Source: Deltaproteobacteria bacterium
GTDB taxonomy: Bacteria; Myxococcota_A; Polyangia; Polyangiales; JADJMO01
NCBI GenBank assembly: GCA_022843175.1
Contig: JALHOE010000070.1
Coordinates: 1 to 39,761 of the forward strand
DNA length: 39,761 nucleotides
Direction: 5' to 3'
The first letter of the stretch is position 1, and each line of letters starts with the position of its first letter. The notes beneath the pieces are model-generated. The model was given only the letters and a program-made list of their open reading frames with translations. It searched no databases and was not told the DNA's origin. This document shows positions 4,365 through 38,704 of this stretch, in pieces. The translations under genes and the position numbers were made by a program.

Positions 4365-6391
4365 AGCTGGCAGGCCGTGAGGTCGACGACGATGAAGGTG
4401 CCGTCGTCGTAGCGCTTCGGGCACTTGTTCCCGAGCGCCGAGATCCGATCGAGCCACGGCACCACCACCTCGGCCAGCGTGCGCCACGCGTCGGACTCGC
4501 CGGTGCGGGTCTGCCACGGCTGATGCCCCCACAGGTTGGTGAGCCACGTGCTCCTGCGATACGTGTCGCCGGCGCGGTCCGGCCGCACCAGCGCGAGGTA
4601 GCCGTAGCCCCAGCGCTTGAACAGGTGCAGCGCCTGCGCCTCGGTCTCGACCTGCATCATCTCGCCGCGCGGCGACGACGCGCCGGGGAGATCGAGCGAC
4701 GCGATGCGGTTGCGCTTGAAATCGAAGCGGTAGGCCTCGTCGACCATCACCACCATCTTCGCGCCCGGCGGCACCGTGAGCTGCATGGCGTCGTAGGGCA
4801 TCTGCGCGGCCGGCTCCGCGAGCGGCTCCGTCTTGCCGTAGTACACGTACGTGTCGTAGCGCCCGACGATGCGCGCGAACTTGTTGATCGACGGATCGCC
4901 GACCCACCACCCGGTGGTGTACATCATGGCGAACGCGACGACGCCGATCGCGACCCACTCGTCGTAGCGGCGACGCGCGGCGTTCGCCGGGCGACCGAGC
5001 GCGCTGCCGATCGTCATGCCCACCGCGAGGACGCCCGCGACCTGGAAGGCGGCCGAGTAGCGCGCGGCGTCCTTGGGCGCGGAGTTGGCGACCGTCCAGG
5101 TGGTGACGAGCCAGGCCAGCGTGGCGGCGGTCACGAAGCGGCGCATCTCGCGCGCCTCCTCGAAGTCGCCGATGAAGCCCGCCGCCGCGAAGACGAGGAG
5201 GAACACGCGGATCGGCTCGGCGAACGCCGTGGTCGGGAGCGAGCCGAGCGCGTCGAGGAGTCGTTTGCCGCCGAACGCGTTGAACCGCGGATCGATCCAG
5301 CCCCGAAACAGCGGGAACAGCGGAGTGCCGTTCGACTTCCAGGCGACACCCATCCAGGCTGCGAGGAACGCGAACGTCGCGACGGTGACGAGCGCGGCCT
5401 CGGTCAGCGCGCGTCGCGAACGGGTGCGGTAGTAGAGGGCGCCGTAGGAGATGCCGATGACCGCCGCGTAGAACGCGAGGTAGTTCTGGCGCAGCGTGCA
5501 CGCTGCCGCGCCGACGAGCGCGACCAACGTGGCGTTGCGCGTCGTCTCCGCGGGGAACCGGCGGACGAACACCAACGTGCGGAACAGCCCGAGGAACGCG
5601 AACGCGCCCGACATCAGGCTGGCGCTGTTGAGGCGTGCGTCGGGGAGCACCACGTAGAAGACGACCAGCACCATGCCGAACGTGCGCGGCGCGCGCCGGT
5701 CGCTGCGAAAGTGGCCGACGAGGAGGAGCACCACCCCGATCAGACAGATGCCGCGATCGACGACGTTGAGGTACCGCACCGGCGCCGTCTCGAGCATCAC
5801 CGCATGGAGCAGCGTCTGCCCCCCGTAGCTGGCGATCCGCCGCAGGCTGAAGGGCTCGATGAGCGTGCCGTTGGCGAAGAGCTTCTTGGCGTGGAGGAAG
5901 TAGGCGGTGTAGTCGTCGGGCGGCTGGAACTTGTCGTCGACGATCGAGTCGCCGTAGTAGAAGAGCACGAGCAGCGCGATCACCACGCCGAGCACCCACG
6001 CCGCCGGGCGAACCCCGGAGAGCACGGCCACCCGGCGTCGGAGCGCGCGCTTCGAGGTGGGGAACATCAGCGCGAGCCCGACCAAACCGGCGCACACGGT
6101 GCCGGCGATCGTCTTCGGCCCGAGCACCCGCGCGCCCTCGAGCGCGCCGCCGATGGCGAGGAACGCGCCGAACCCCCACGCCGCGCGAAGGCCGAGGTCC
6201 ACGTCGCGTCGAGGCGCCACGAAGTAGGCGATGAGCGAGCCGTAGCCGACGAACGAGGCGAGCACCGCGAGACCCCACCAGGCGGTCGCCCAGAACGGGC
6301 GCATGGCCGGCGCGGCGCGGAGGAACAACGCGAGGGTCGCGATCACGAGGACCGCCCAGGCGAGGACGATCGCCGTGCGACTTCGCGACAT
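4361..6391 (-). CDS. GT-C-like polytopic membrane protein
   Basis: The start is the ATG at 6391-6389, which overlaps the TGA of the aldo/keto reductase (TGATG), so translation is coupled; the open frame further upstream is only a shadow of that gene. The 676-residue product (MSRSRTAIVLAWAVLVIATL at the N-terminus) has about a dozen hydrophobic helices and, after the first group, an outer acidic loop (DSIVDDKFQPPDDYTAYFLH) that could be the GT-C acidic motif. The last ~140 residues are a soluble domain ending in TFIVVDLTACQL. GT-C proteins move sugars from polyprenyl carriers, but this one lacks a diagnostic signature I can name, so 'GT-C-like' rests on topology. Last gene of a four-gene coupled cluster. 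Confidence 0.68.
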   Translation of the reverse strand: MSRSRTAIVLAWAVLVIATLALFLRAAPAMRPFWATAWWGLAVLASFVGYGSLIAYFVAPRRDVDLGLRAAWGFGAFLAIGGALEGARVLGPKTIAGTVCAGLVGLALMFPTSKRALRRRVAVLSGVRPAAWVLGVVIALLVLFYYGDSIVDDKFQPPDDYTAYFLHAKKLFANGTLIEPFSLRRIASYGGQTLLHAVMLETAPVRYLNVVDRGICLIGVVLLLVGHFRSDRRAPRTFGMVLVVFYVVLPDARLNSASLMSGAFAFLGLFRTLVFVRRFPAETTRNATLVALVGAAACTLRQNYLAFYAAVIGISYGALYYRTRSRRALTEAALVTVATFAFLAAWMGVAWKSNGTPLFPLFRGWIDPRFNAFGGKRLLDALGSLPTTAFAEPIRVFLLVFAAAGFIGDFEEAREMRRFVTAATLAWLVTTWTVANSAPKDAARYSAAFQVAGVLAVGMTIGSALGRPANAARRRYDEWVAIGVVAFAMMYTTGWWVGDPSINKFARIVGRYDTYVYYGKTEPLAEPAAQMPYDAMQLTVPPGAKMVVMVDEAYRFDFKRNRIASLDLPGASSPRGEMMQVETEAQALHLFKRWGYGYLALVRPDRAGDTYRRSTWLTNLWGHQPWQTRTGESDAWRTLAEVVVPWLDRISALGNKCPKRYDDGTFIVVDLTACQL

Positions 6392-21343: not shown

Positions 21344-21434
21344 CGGCACCGCCTCAACGGAGCGCTTGCGCGACGAGTGGGGCGGCCCAAGGGGGGTCTG
21401 CGGGGTTTCCTGCTTGGCTCGAGGGTTGATTCGC

Positions 21435-21674
21435 ATGGTCGGTTCCGTGAAGTGGTCCGAGCTCATTGCTTCGGAGGAGTTCCATGGTCGCTGGGTCGCT
21501 CTCGACCAGTGCCGGTACGACGCGGCGGCCAAGCCGGTCGAGGGAACCCTGATCGACGCCGACGACGACCTCGTCGCGCTCTGCAACCGCATCCGTTCGA
21601 GCGGCTCGCACAACTGCGCCATCCTCTTCATCGAGGAGCGTCTCCCCCCCTCGCAGCCCCGCGCGCTGCACTAA
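21435..21674 (+). CDS. Small DUF5678-like protein
   Basis: 79 residues from the ATG at 21435; a TTG further upstream (21366) would add residues unlike the family. The sequence SEEFHGRWVALDQCRYD, then VEGTLIDADDDLVALCNRIR, then HNCAILFIEE follows the DUF5678 style: small alpha/beta proteins with an opening WVAL strand and a closing hydrophobic strand. No catalytic residues stand out; the three Cys are not in a metal-binding spacing. GAGG lies about 10 nt upstream of the ATG. It is followed by a long structured intergenic stretch, and its role is unknown. Confidence 0.65.
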   Translation: MVGSVKWSELIASEEFHGRWVALDQCRYDAAAKPVEGTLIDADDDLVALCNRIRSSGSHNCAILFIEERLPPSQPRALH

Positions 21675-21693
21675 CCGCGGGGCCGCGCACGAC

Positions 21694-21778
21694 GGGGCCG
21701 CGCGCGTAAGCGCGCGGTTGCCCTCCGAACCCCCAAACCGGTCCAAACCGGCAACCGCGGGCTCACGCCCGCGGCCCC
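21694..21778. repeat. 85-bp nested palindromic element (three-way-junction fold)
   Basis: The ends GGGGCCGCG (21694-21702) and CGCGGCCCC (21770-21778) are exact inverted copies. Inside are two perfect 8-bp hairpins with 4-nt loops: 21698-21717 (loop GTAA) and 21755-21774 (loop TCAC). GGTTGCC/GGCAACC (21716-21722 with 21750-21756) closes a third arm holding direct CCAAACCGG repeats. The outer pair and the hairpins compete, so two alternative folds exist. It resembles a REP/BIME or MITE-type element; no second full copy is in this window. Confidence 0.6.
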
Positions 21779-21891
21779 TTCGAGTGGACCAATCCCCCGA
21801 AATCAAGGCGATTTCGGTCCGTCCTCGGGTGAATCCGTCCGAGCCCTTCACCCGGAATATCAATGGGTTGGGCTGTGGAAAACCCGCTTTC

Positions 21892-21920
21892 TTGACACCG
21901 AGGGGGGGGGCTTCTACCCC
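21892..21920 (+). promoter_or_regulatory. Possible promoter with a nine-G spacer tract
   Basis: A perfect -35 TTGACA (21892-21897) is followed at 17 bp by TACCCC (21915-21920), a weak -10. The spacer contains an uninterrupted run of nine G (21902-21910). It lies just upstream of the SprT-like gene. The weak -10 makes the promoter call uncertain. Confidence 0.3.
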
Positions 21921-21934
21921 CATTGGCATCCCCC

Positions 21935-22855
21935 ATGCCCTCCGAGCGCTCCGAGCAGCCCAAGAACGCCTCGCTGGCGTTGCTCGCGCGGGCGCCGAAC
22001 CTCCAGGCGCTGATGCCCTTCCTCCGCGGCTCGGTCGCGAAGAAGTCGAGGGCCAAGGACTCCGCGCTCGTTGGCCGCGTGGCGCGCCCGGCGATCTCGC
22101 TGTCGCACCACGCCATCCAGCAGGTGGTCGAGCAGCTCGAGCTGCGATTCTTCCCCCGCAGCCCCAACGTCTACGTCCACGAGGGCGCGCGCCAGGCGCT
22201 CGAGCGCCGGCTCTCGCTCGTCGGCCGCCAGCCGATCCTCGTCTCGATCACCGACAACCGCCACTCGATGATCCACGCCACCCGTAAGGGCGGGCTCCTG
22301 CGGGCGCGGCTCCATCACATGTTCCTCGACGCGCCGGTCTCGGTGGTCGAGGCGCTCGCCCGCTTCCTGCTGTTCCGCGACCGAGACGCCTCGCAGACGG
22401 TCGGTCGTTACATCGACCTCAACACGCAGCGGATCCGCAGCCTCGAGCCGCACCGTCGCTCCCTCAAGGACAACCGCGGCGACTACCACGACCTCGACGA
22501 GCTCTTCGCCGAGGTCAACAACCTCTACTTCGACGGCCTGGTCGACGCCCGCATCTGCTGGGGCAACGAGGGCCGGGCGCGCGGGCGCAAGCGCTCCACC
22601 ATCAAGCTCGGGTCCTACTCGGCGCAGGAGCAGCTGGTCCGCATCCACCCGCGGCTCGATCAGCCGTTCGTCCCCCGGTACTTCATCTCGTTCGTCATCT
22701 TCCACGAGATGCTCCACCACGTGATGCCGGCCACCCGCGTCGCCGGCCGCCGCAAGCTCCACCCCCCCGAGTTCCGCGTTCGCGAGCGCCGCTACCGCCA
22801 GTACGACCGGGCGATCGCCTGGGAGAACGCGAACCTCGACCGTCTCCTCAAGTAG
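21935..22855 (+). CDS. SprT-like zinc metalloprotease
   Basis: 306 residues from ATG 21935; TTG at 21923 would add four residues. The C-terminal half carries the zinc-site motif HEMLHH (His257-Glu258, His261), followed by HPPEFRVRERRYRQYDRAI, where the Glu or a His can serve as the third ligand, as in SprT/M48-type gluzincins. Upstream are LFAEVNNLYFDGLVDARICW and STIKLGSYS, both typical of SprT-like proteases (Wss1/SPRTN/SprT fold). The N-terminal ~150 residues are basic and not recognised. There is no signal peptide, so it is probably cytoplasmic. A DNA-protein crosslink or protein quality-control role would be family-based inference. Confidence 0.83.
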   Translation: MPSERSEQPKNASLALLARAPNLQALMPFLRGSVAKKSRAKDSALVGRVARPAISLSHHAIQQVVEQLELRFFPRSPNVYVHEGARQALERRLSLVGRQPILVSITDNRHSMIHATRKGGLLRARLHHMFLDAPVSVVEALARFLLFRDRDASQTVGRYIDLNTQRIRSLEPHRRSLKDNRGDYHDLDELFAEVNNLYFDGLVDARICWGNEGRARGRKRSTIKLGSYSAQEQLVRIHPRLDQPFVPRYFISFVIFHEMLHHVMPATRVAGRRKLHPPEFRVRERRYRQYDRAIAWENANLDRLLK

Positions 22856-37988: not shown

Positions 37989-38681
37989 ATGACCGAACGC
38001 TCGCCGAGCGCGTGGACGCAGGCGTGGCTCATCGCCCGGAAAGACCTGGCGATCGAGCGGCGCACCGGCGAGATCGTCGTCACCGGCGGCTTCTTCGGCG
38101 CGCTCCTCGCCATCCTCACCTCGGTCGCGTTCTACGAGGGACCGGCCGGGGCCCACCACCTCGCGCCGGGGGCGATCTGGATCGCGACCGCGTTCTCCGC
38201 CGTCCTCGCGCTCGGGCGCACCTGGCAGCGCGAACGCGAGGACGGCGCGCTCGACGCGCTCCTCGCCGGCCCGGTATCCCGACCGGCCGTCTTCTTCGGC
38301 AAGGCGATTGGGGTCGCCGTGTTCCTGGTGGCGATCGAGCTCGTCGTGGTGCCGCTCGTGTCGCTGATGCTGCACGTGAACCTGGGCGCGATCGTCGGCC
38401 CGCTCGCGCTGCTCCTCGGCCTCGCCACGGTCGGCGTCGCCGCGAGCGGCACGCTGTTCGGAGCGATGACGGTGCGCACCCGCGCGCGCGAGCTGATCCT
38501 CGCCGCGGTGCTGTTCCCGCTCCTGACGCCCACGCTCATCGTCGGCGTCGCAGCCACCCGCGACCTCATCGACGGCGCGACGGTCAGCGAGCTCGGCGAC
38601 TGGATCAAGCTCCTCGCGATGTTCGACTTCGTCTTCGTCGTCGGCGGCGCAGTGGTGTTCGGCCCGGTGATCGAAGCCTAG
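37989..38681 (+). CDS. ccmB: CcmB-like haem-exporter ABC permease
   Basis: 230 residues with six hydrophobic segments and the start AWLIARKDLAIERRTGEIVV, which is typical of CcmB (cytochrome c maturation): a cytoplasmic amphipathic start with RKDLxxExR, then helices. WQREREDGALDALLAGPVSR and LFPLLTPTLIVGV are also CcmB-like. CcmB is the membrane part of the CcmAB transporter that acts with CcmC and CcmE. No CcmA ATPase or CcmC lies within the window, so the partners must be elsewhere, or just downstream of the convergent E2 region. Its stop is in the stem of the hairpin at 38679-38704. Confidence 0.82.
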   Translation: MTERSPSAWTQAWLIARKDLAIERRTGEIVVTGGFFGALLAILTSVAFYEGPAGAHHLAPGAIWIATAFSAVLALGRTWQREREDGALDALLAGPVSRPAVFFGKAIGVAVFLVAIELVVVPLVSLMLHVNLGAIVGPLALLLGLATVGVAASGTLFGAMTVRTRARELILAAVLFPLLTPTLIVGVAATRDLIDGATVSELGDWIKLLAMFDFVFVVGGAVVFGPVIEA

Positions 38682-38704
38682 GCGCGCGCGTAAGCGAGCG
38701 CCTA
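38679..38704 (+). terminator. Hairpin at the end of the CcmB-like gene
   Basis: TAGGCGC (38679-38685) and GCGCCTA (38698-38704) form a perfect 7-bp stem enclosing CGC-GTAA-GCG with one G/A mismatch. The TAG stop is part of the stem. No T tract follows, so classical rho-independent termination is uncertain. The loop motif CGCGTAAGCG also occurs in the 21698-21717 hairpin. Confidence 0.5.

Follow-up and report, generated by a model that had tools for sequence, protein, structure and literature searches.

The region between positions 21675 and 21934 of the window (the whole stretch of 39,761 nucleotides that was analysed) separates two genes of the forward strand. The upstream gene (21435–21674), called like all genes in this work with a purpose-made codon-model gene finder (90% coding) and not with a published tool, codes for a small protein of 79 amino acids that is 64 per cent identical over its length to its counterpart in the same-genus genome G001. 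It matches no Pfam or NCBIfam family, and the description 'DUF5678-like' given in a sequence-only reading of this DNA is unsupported. The description of the downstream gene (21935–22855, forward strand) as SprT-like is partly borne out: the protein matches PF10263 (E 8.5e-5), but under the curated cut-off (22.8 versus 25.6 bits). Matches with 64–75 per cent identity are present in all four family genomes searched. A block upstream of this gene (21818–21945, forward strand) is conserved in four family genomes (TCCGTCC ... TTGAC ... CTACCCC), with TTGAC invariant in five of five sequences and present here as TTGACA (21892–21897). The block is likely to be the promoter region of the SprT-like gene.

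This block and the stop codon of the small gene enclose a nested palindromic element of 85 bp (21694–21778, no strand assigned), which lies just outside the block. The element is composed of two inverted copies of one repeat unit, here called REP-A (21694–21722, plus strand, and 21750–21778, minus strand), each with a CGAC or CGAA tag before it, and the pair is termed a REPIN. Unit 1 with its tag (21690–21722, plus strand) begins 15 nt past the stop codon of the upstream gene and consists of the tag CGAC (21690–21693) and a bulged hairpin with a GTAA loop. Unit 2 (21750–21782, minus strand) has the tag CGAA (21782–21779 on the minus strand) and a GTGA-loop hairpin with a differing mid-stem, so that the arms of the pair are unlike. 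A spacer of 27 nt (21723–21749) separates the two units.

The inverted repeats that had been pointed out in this region are all present: the outer 9-bp inverted ends (21679–21687/21770–21778), the perfect 8-bp hairpins with 4-nt loops (21698–21705/21710–21717 and 21755–21762/21767–21774), the GGTTGCC/GGCAACC arm, which is included in a single 33-nt inverted pair with 88 per cent identity (21690–21722/21750–21782), and two additional downstream repeats (21797–21817 and 21826–21854). The left outer arm, GGGGCCGCG at 21679–21687 on the plus strand, resembles the 5' part of the REP-A unit and may be a truncated extra copy of it. The two alternative folds proposed for the nested element, one long hairpin or a separate hairpin for each arm, are both feasible, and the long hairpin is the RNA minimum-energy fold (−76 kcal/mol, z −4.9; DNA z −4.25). 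The two short hairpins are unremarkable for the base composition (2 seen versus 0.45 expected, P 0.10). Since hairpins of such size are not rare by composition, the decisive evidence is recurrence across the genome, with 92 units of REP-A against none for the reversed pattern. The two downstream 8-bp inverted repeats (neither assigned to a strand) are weakly above chance (P 0.04). That at 21826–21854 has no further copy in 761 kb of sequence from the same genome, and that at 21797–21817 has just six matches there, each with 4–5 of 21 bases wrong. Neither is conserved in the orthologous region of G001, where the latter falls in an alignment gap and the arms of the former are unconserved. By these comparisons, both lie outside the REP-A element and family.

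The 92 REP-A units were found at three or fewer mismatches in the 9.75 Mb (470 contigs) of the genome of origin, with a strand distribution of 54 to 38. The consensus, of about 33 nt, is CGA(C/A)-GGGGCCGCG-SS-C-GTNA-G-SS-CGCGG-TTGCC, spelled out as CGA(C/A) GGGG CCGCG SS C GTNA G SS CGCGG TTGC(C) with a variable last C; the lower stem includes a bulged G and G–U pairs. Conservation extends to the tag on one flank and ceases past the unit on the other. The tag positions are C in 84, G in 77, A in 83 and C or A in 91 of the 92 units, and the third position of the loop is a purine (A or G) in 73. A few degenerate units (that of locus L105 and some others) were retained in all counts. When neighbouring units are merged there are 74 elements: 57 singlets, 16 inverted pairs and one triple. 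Of the 19 cases of neighbouring units separated by less than 200 nt, 18 are inverted, their tags pointing outward, and one is direct.

Covariance analysis shows that the stem positions covary. Over the 92 rows, 96.7 per cent of the stem cells are paired, and both-sided changes affect 47 cells, as against 17.8 in shuffled and 1–6 in slid alignments; they are found mainly at the mid-stem G–C/C–G pair (38 of 92). The covariance model gives at least 103 matches in the genome of origin, the weakest few being REP-B-type (see below) or partial. This number is possibly a lower bound, as the best 150 candidates per genome were scored (of 38,357 in this genome).

The family is restricted to one species in the genomes compared. 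At one mismatch or fewer, the REP-A pattern is present in the genome of origin and in none of the 55 others searched, including same-genus G001, same-family G002–G004 and other relatives. The covariance model matches 2 of 23 genomes, the genome of origin and, by one marginal match (E 8e-4), G009; G001 has no match. Given the limit of 150 candidates per genome, the zeros in relatives rest on the pattern search as well as on the model. When 377 genomes sampled from the phylum were searched at two or fewer mismatches, 88 matches fell in the genome of origin and two other genomes had one match each; the reversed pattern gave three single matches in the same sample. The exact pattern was not found in a wider collection of genome contigs, which possibly does not include the genome of origin.

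An empty site is present in G001, where 27 nt separate the aligned flanks, versus 141 nt including the REPIN in the window. The flanking proteins are just 64 and 75 per cent identical between the two genomes, and the exact insertion junctions therefore cannot be called. This is the one empty site shown: 25 of the 146 flank proteins of REP-bearing gaps had any match in G001, and for 1 of 73 such gaps the two flanks were neighbours in the G001 stretches examined. At the REPIN loci L046 and L058, the G001 locus examined lacks the second flank next to the orthologue. About 17 nt past the mgtE stop codon at L046, where the genome of origin has a REP-A pair, G001 carries a palindrome of its own; in this one case the two species have differing repeats at the corresponding gene end. 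This G001 palindrome, CCCCGG-NN-TGAA-NN-CCGGGGCACCGA, also covaries and has 13 matches in 845 kb of G001 versus 1 in 761 kb of the genome of origin (G001 loci L188, L199, L200, L203, L219 and L270:2946). Several copies form inverted pairs about 200–350 bp apart, and the palindrome could be a MITE.

Two sister families were identified in the genome of origin. REP-B, GGAGCCGCG NN CGTNAG N GAGCGGGTTGTC, has 231 units at two or fewer mismatches and was not found in any of 22 relatives. It has the architecture of REP-A, with core, loop and 3'-end placement in common, and is devoid of the CGA(C/A) tag. Its placement and pairing were analysed for 128 of the 231 units, in which position 10 covaries with position 17 (GC in 64, CG in 61). 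The 74 REP-B elements are located between convergent (35), tandem (30) or divergent (3) genes, inside genes (3) or at edges (3), at a median distance of 10 nt from gene 3' ends. REP-B often adjoins REP-A, for example at L111:10058-10125, L084:2924-2989 and L091:3070-3137. REP-C, AGGCGC N CGCGTNAGCG N GCGCCT, shares the core CGTNAGC with REP-A and REP-B. There are 45 distinct REP-C sites at one mismatch or fewer in 761 kb of stretches of the genome of origin (none for the reversed control) and none in 845 kb of G001; 27 of the 34 placed sites are between convergent genes. Examples are L054:2427-2564, L100:138-338 and L068:3335-3402, some of them short tandem arrays, and one copy is present in the window (38680–38703), overlapping the end of a predicted gene (37989–38681).

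The unlike arms of the window REPIN follow a general rule. Of 50 inverted REP-B pairs, 47 have arms that are unlike at the position 10/17 pair (25.3 expected; none of 20,000 shuffles as high). Of the 16 REP-A pairs, defined as non-overlapping with a spacer of 6–31 nt, 14 are unlike over four mid-stem bases (10.9 expected, P 0.02); an alternative count of 17 pairs, one of them overlapping, gives 12 with a difference at a single stem base, versus 8.8 expected (P 0.048). The REP-A tag and the mid-stem base are weakly associated (Fisher P 0.03). When one arm is replaced in silico by a copy of the other, the long hairpin gains relative stability in 16 of 16 REP-A and 49 of 50 REP-B pairs. With the arms as found, the long hairpin nevertheless remains preferable to two separate ones in all 16 and all 50, respectively; thus, the unlike arms weaken the long fold without abolishing it. 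In the sections of PMC3733652 on this subject, several REP families are described as preferring unlike-arm pairs, protection from SbcCD-type removal is suggested and the reason for the preference is posed as an open question. By weakening the long palindrome, unlike arms could likewise allow REP-A and REP-B pairs to escape palindrome-specific removal. The 47 of 50 rule of REP-B constitutes a clean data set for the question of why REP pairs favour unlike arms.

The element is very probably a REPIN of REP-A, a non-autonomous, species-restricted REP family that is probably copied in trans by a RAYT-like Y1/HUH transposase. Its identity as REP and REPIN is well supported; its mobilisation, and any role as RNA, we infer. 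Copy number and absence in relatives together suggest that REP-A is mobile. Copying would proceed via single-stranded DNA, with the CGA(C/A) tag acting as a guide at the hairpin foot, like GTAG in known REPs. Against this explanation count the tag, which is not GTAG and is exact in 67 of the 92 units, the single empty site, the 57 singlets among 74 elements, and several properties of the candidate transposases described next: their scores below the family cut-off, the lack of REP-A and REP-B beside their genes, and the 28 matches in G001, a genome with neither repeat.

The candidate transposases are five RAYT-like genes in the genome of origin; there are 28 matches (some partial) in G001 and none in G002–G004. 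These genes have multiplied in G001. The NHVH and YV motifs are invariant in the three proteins aligned out of the five. The proteins match NCBIfam NF047646 with E values of 5e-10 to 2e-11 (39–44 bits, below the 80-bit cut-off), and a profile compared with solved structures matched transposase entries only (2xm3, 2xo6 and 2xma; E 0.005, 51 positions). By blastn, among the matches listed for eight query loci, the sequence shared between RAYT loci is mainly the gene itself and low-complexity repeats. None of the five genes has REP-A or REP-B within 1.5 kb, as a REPtron would. The nearest copies are at about 1.63 kb (REP-A) and 1.55 kb (REP-B) from the C139 gene and at about 2.95 kb (REP-B) from the C15 gene; neither family is recognizable in the stretches around the C367, C187 and C46 genes. 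At 194 nt from the C15 gene there is a degenerate palindrome resembling REP-C, with 4 mismatches, and the C187 gene has an exact REP-C at 1.7 kb. The C15 gene has 228-bp direct repeats on both sides (81% identical; L110:4943-5168 and 5794-6019). A separate IS200-like Y1 protein is encoded in C128 (L009:1441-1875); its HUH motif reads EVH, with the first His lost, and it may be inactive or domesticated.

Because neither REP-A nor REP-B flanks any of these RAYT-like genes, the link between repeat and enzyme is one that we infer. It is possible, if the less favoured view, that the copies spread independently of RAYT, through recombination, slippage during replication or another enzyme unrelated to it, and that the presence of RAYT-like genes is a coincidence. 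Such a spread would agree with the distance between genes and repeats, with the richness of G001 in RAYT-like genes and its lack of REP-A and REP-B, and with the CGTC REPs, described in the relevant part of PMC3733652 as having no dedicated transposase. However, the dispersed copies, their unrelated flanks and the conservation that ends at the tag resemble transposition more than slippage. PMC6006769 includes, in its account of these groups, two RAYT subclasses with no REP found near their genes.

REP-A is mainly extragenic and close to gene 3' ends. In called gaps there are 82 of the 92 units, with 8 within predicted genes and 2 at edges. The 74 elements are distributed between convergent (31), tandem (30) and divergent (5) genes, the insides of predicted genes (6) and edges (2); random placement, drawn from the same REP-centred stretches, predicts 16 per cent convergent and 31 per cent divergent. 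The median distance past gene 3' ends is 14 nt, versus 110 nt for random placement, and 19 of the 23 tandem singlets are oriented with the tag end to the stop codon upstream (binomial P 0.0026). Most likely, this placement reflects tolerance of insertions at gene 3' ends; where REP-A is transcribed, the mRNA of the upstream gene would acquire a 3' hairpin. That REP-A is itself a functional 3'-end element, a GNRA-capped mRNA hairpin that protects or terminates transcripts and is spread by copying and kept by selection, seems unlikely to us. Its short distance to stop codons, its orientation, the purine preference at the third loop base and the covarying stem all agree with such a role, but an insertion mechanism could also produce the orientation, REP-B has no strand bias among its 16 tandem singlets (8 versus 8), G001 lacks REP-A at the orthologous position, and no T-run follows the hairpins. 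No intrinsic terminator was found in 21400–22000, and that reading of the element was rejected. It is very improbable that the 260-bp stretch is a structured RNA in its own right or a riboregulator acting on the SprT-like gene, as its strong fold might suggest: the fold strength results from a repeat present in 74 elements, the G001 orthologue has no REPIN in front of it, its conserved block beginning only past the REPIN position, and Rfam gave chance-level microRNA matches only (E 0.5 and 0.92). The other proposal of the sequence-only reading, a BIME/REP-type palindrome, is upheld by copy number, covariation, inverted pairs, 3'-end placement and the one empty site.

Like REPs in the broad sense, REP-A is a palindrome of 20–40 bp with a conserved unpaired tag at one end and many dispersed copies; like REPINs, the window pair and the 16 non-overlapping REP-A pairs consist of two REPs in inverse orientation, separated by a short spacer. 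The GTAG REPs and REPINs of Escherichia coli and Pseudomonas, associated with RAYT (TnpA-REP), are similar in their bulged palindrome with an unpaired tetranucleotide at the hairpin foot, their inverted pairs, their intergenic location near gene 3' ends, their many copies and the RAYT-like genes of the genome. REP-A differs from them by its tag, CGA(C/A) and not GTAG or GTRG, by RAYT-like genes that it does not flank and by the excess of singlets. With the CGTC-tagged REPs, as outlined in excerpts of Di Nocera 2013 (PMC3733652), it shares the lack of an associated transposase gene, the common unlike-arm inverted pairs and the location between convergent and unidirectional genes; the same excerpts give those REPs a CGTC tag, an AT-starting stem of 8–9 bp and a CCA-like tail, whereas REP-A has CGA(C/A), a GC-only core stem and TTGCC. 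The atypical structures of subclass 2.6 and class 3 TnpA-Y1, in the portion of PMC6006769 that deals with them, are also non-GTAG hairpins copied in the host genome, but they flank their own transposase gene and REP-A copies do not. A bolder picture, in which REP-A and REP-B are two-ended, near-obligate heterodimers with distinct arms, REP-A has a third kind of guide tag, unlinked RAYT-like enzymes act in trans and oriented GNRA-capped hairpins follow stop codons throughout the genome, is in our opinion improbable as a whole.

As a kind of repeat REP-A is ordinary; what sets it apart are its unusual tag and the strong rule of unlike arms. A limited literature search found no study of REPs in Myxococcota; the relevant lines of PMC3733652 place GTAG repeats in all proteobacterial divisions from alpha to epsilon, which then included the present group. 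REP-A and REP-B add species-restricted REP/REPIN families in Myxococcota, and the tag of REP-A is outside the two described super-families. The genus pair, one genome with REP-A, REP-B and five RAYT-like genes and the other, G001, with neither repeat and 28 matches to such genes, would permit testing of the link between repeat and enzyme.
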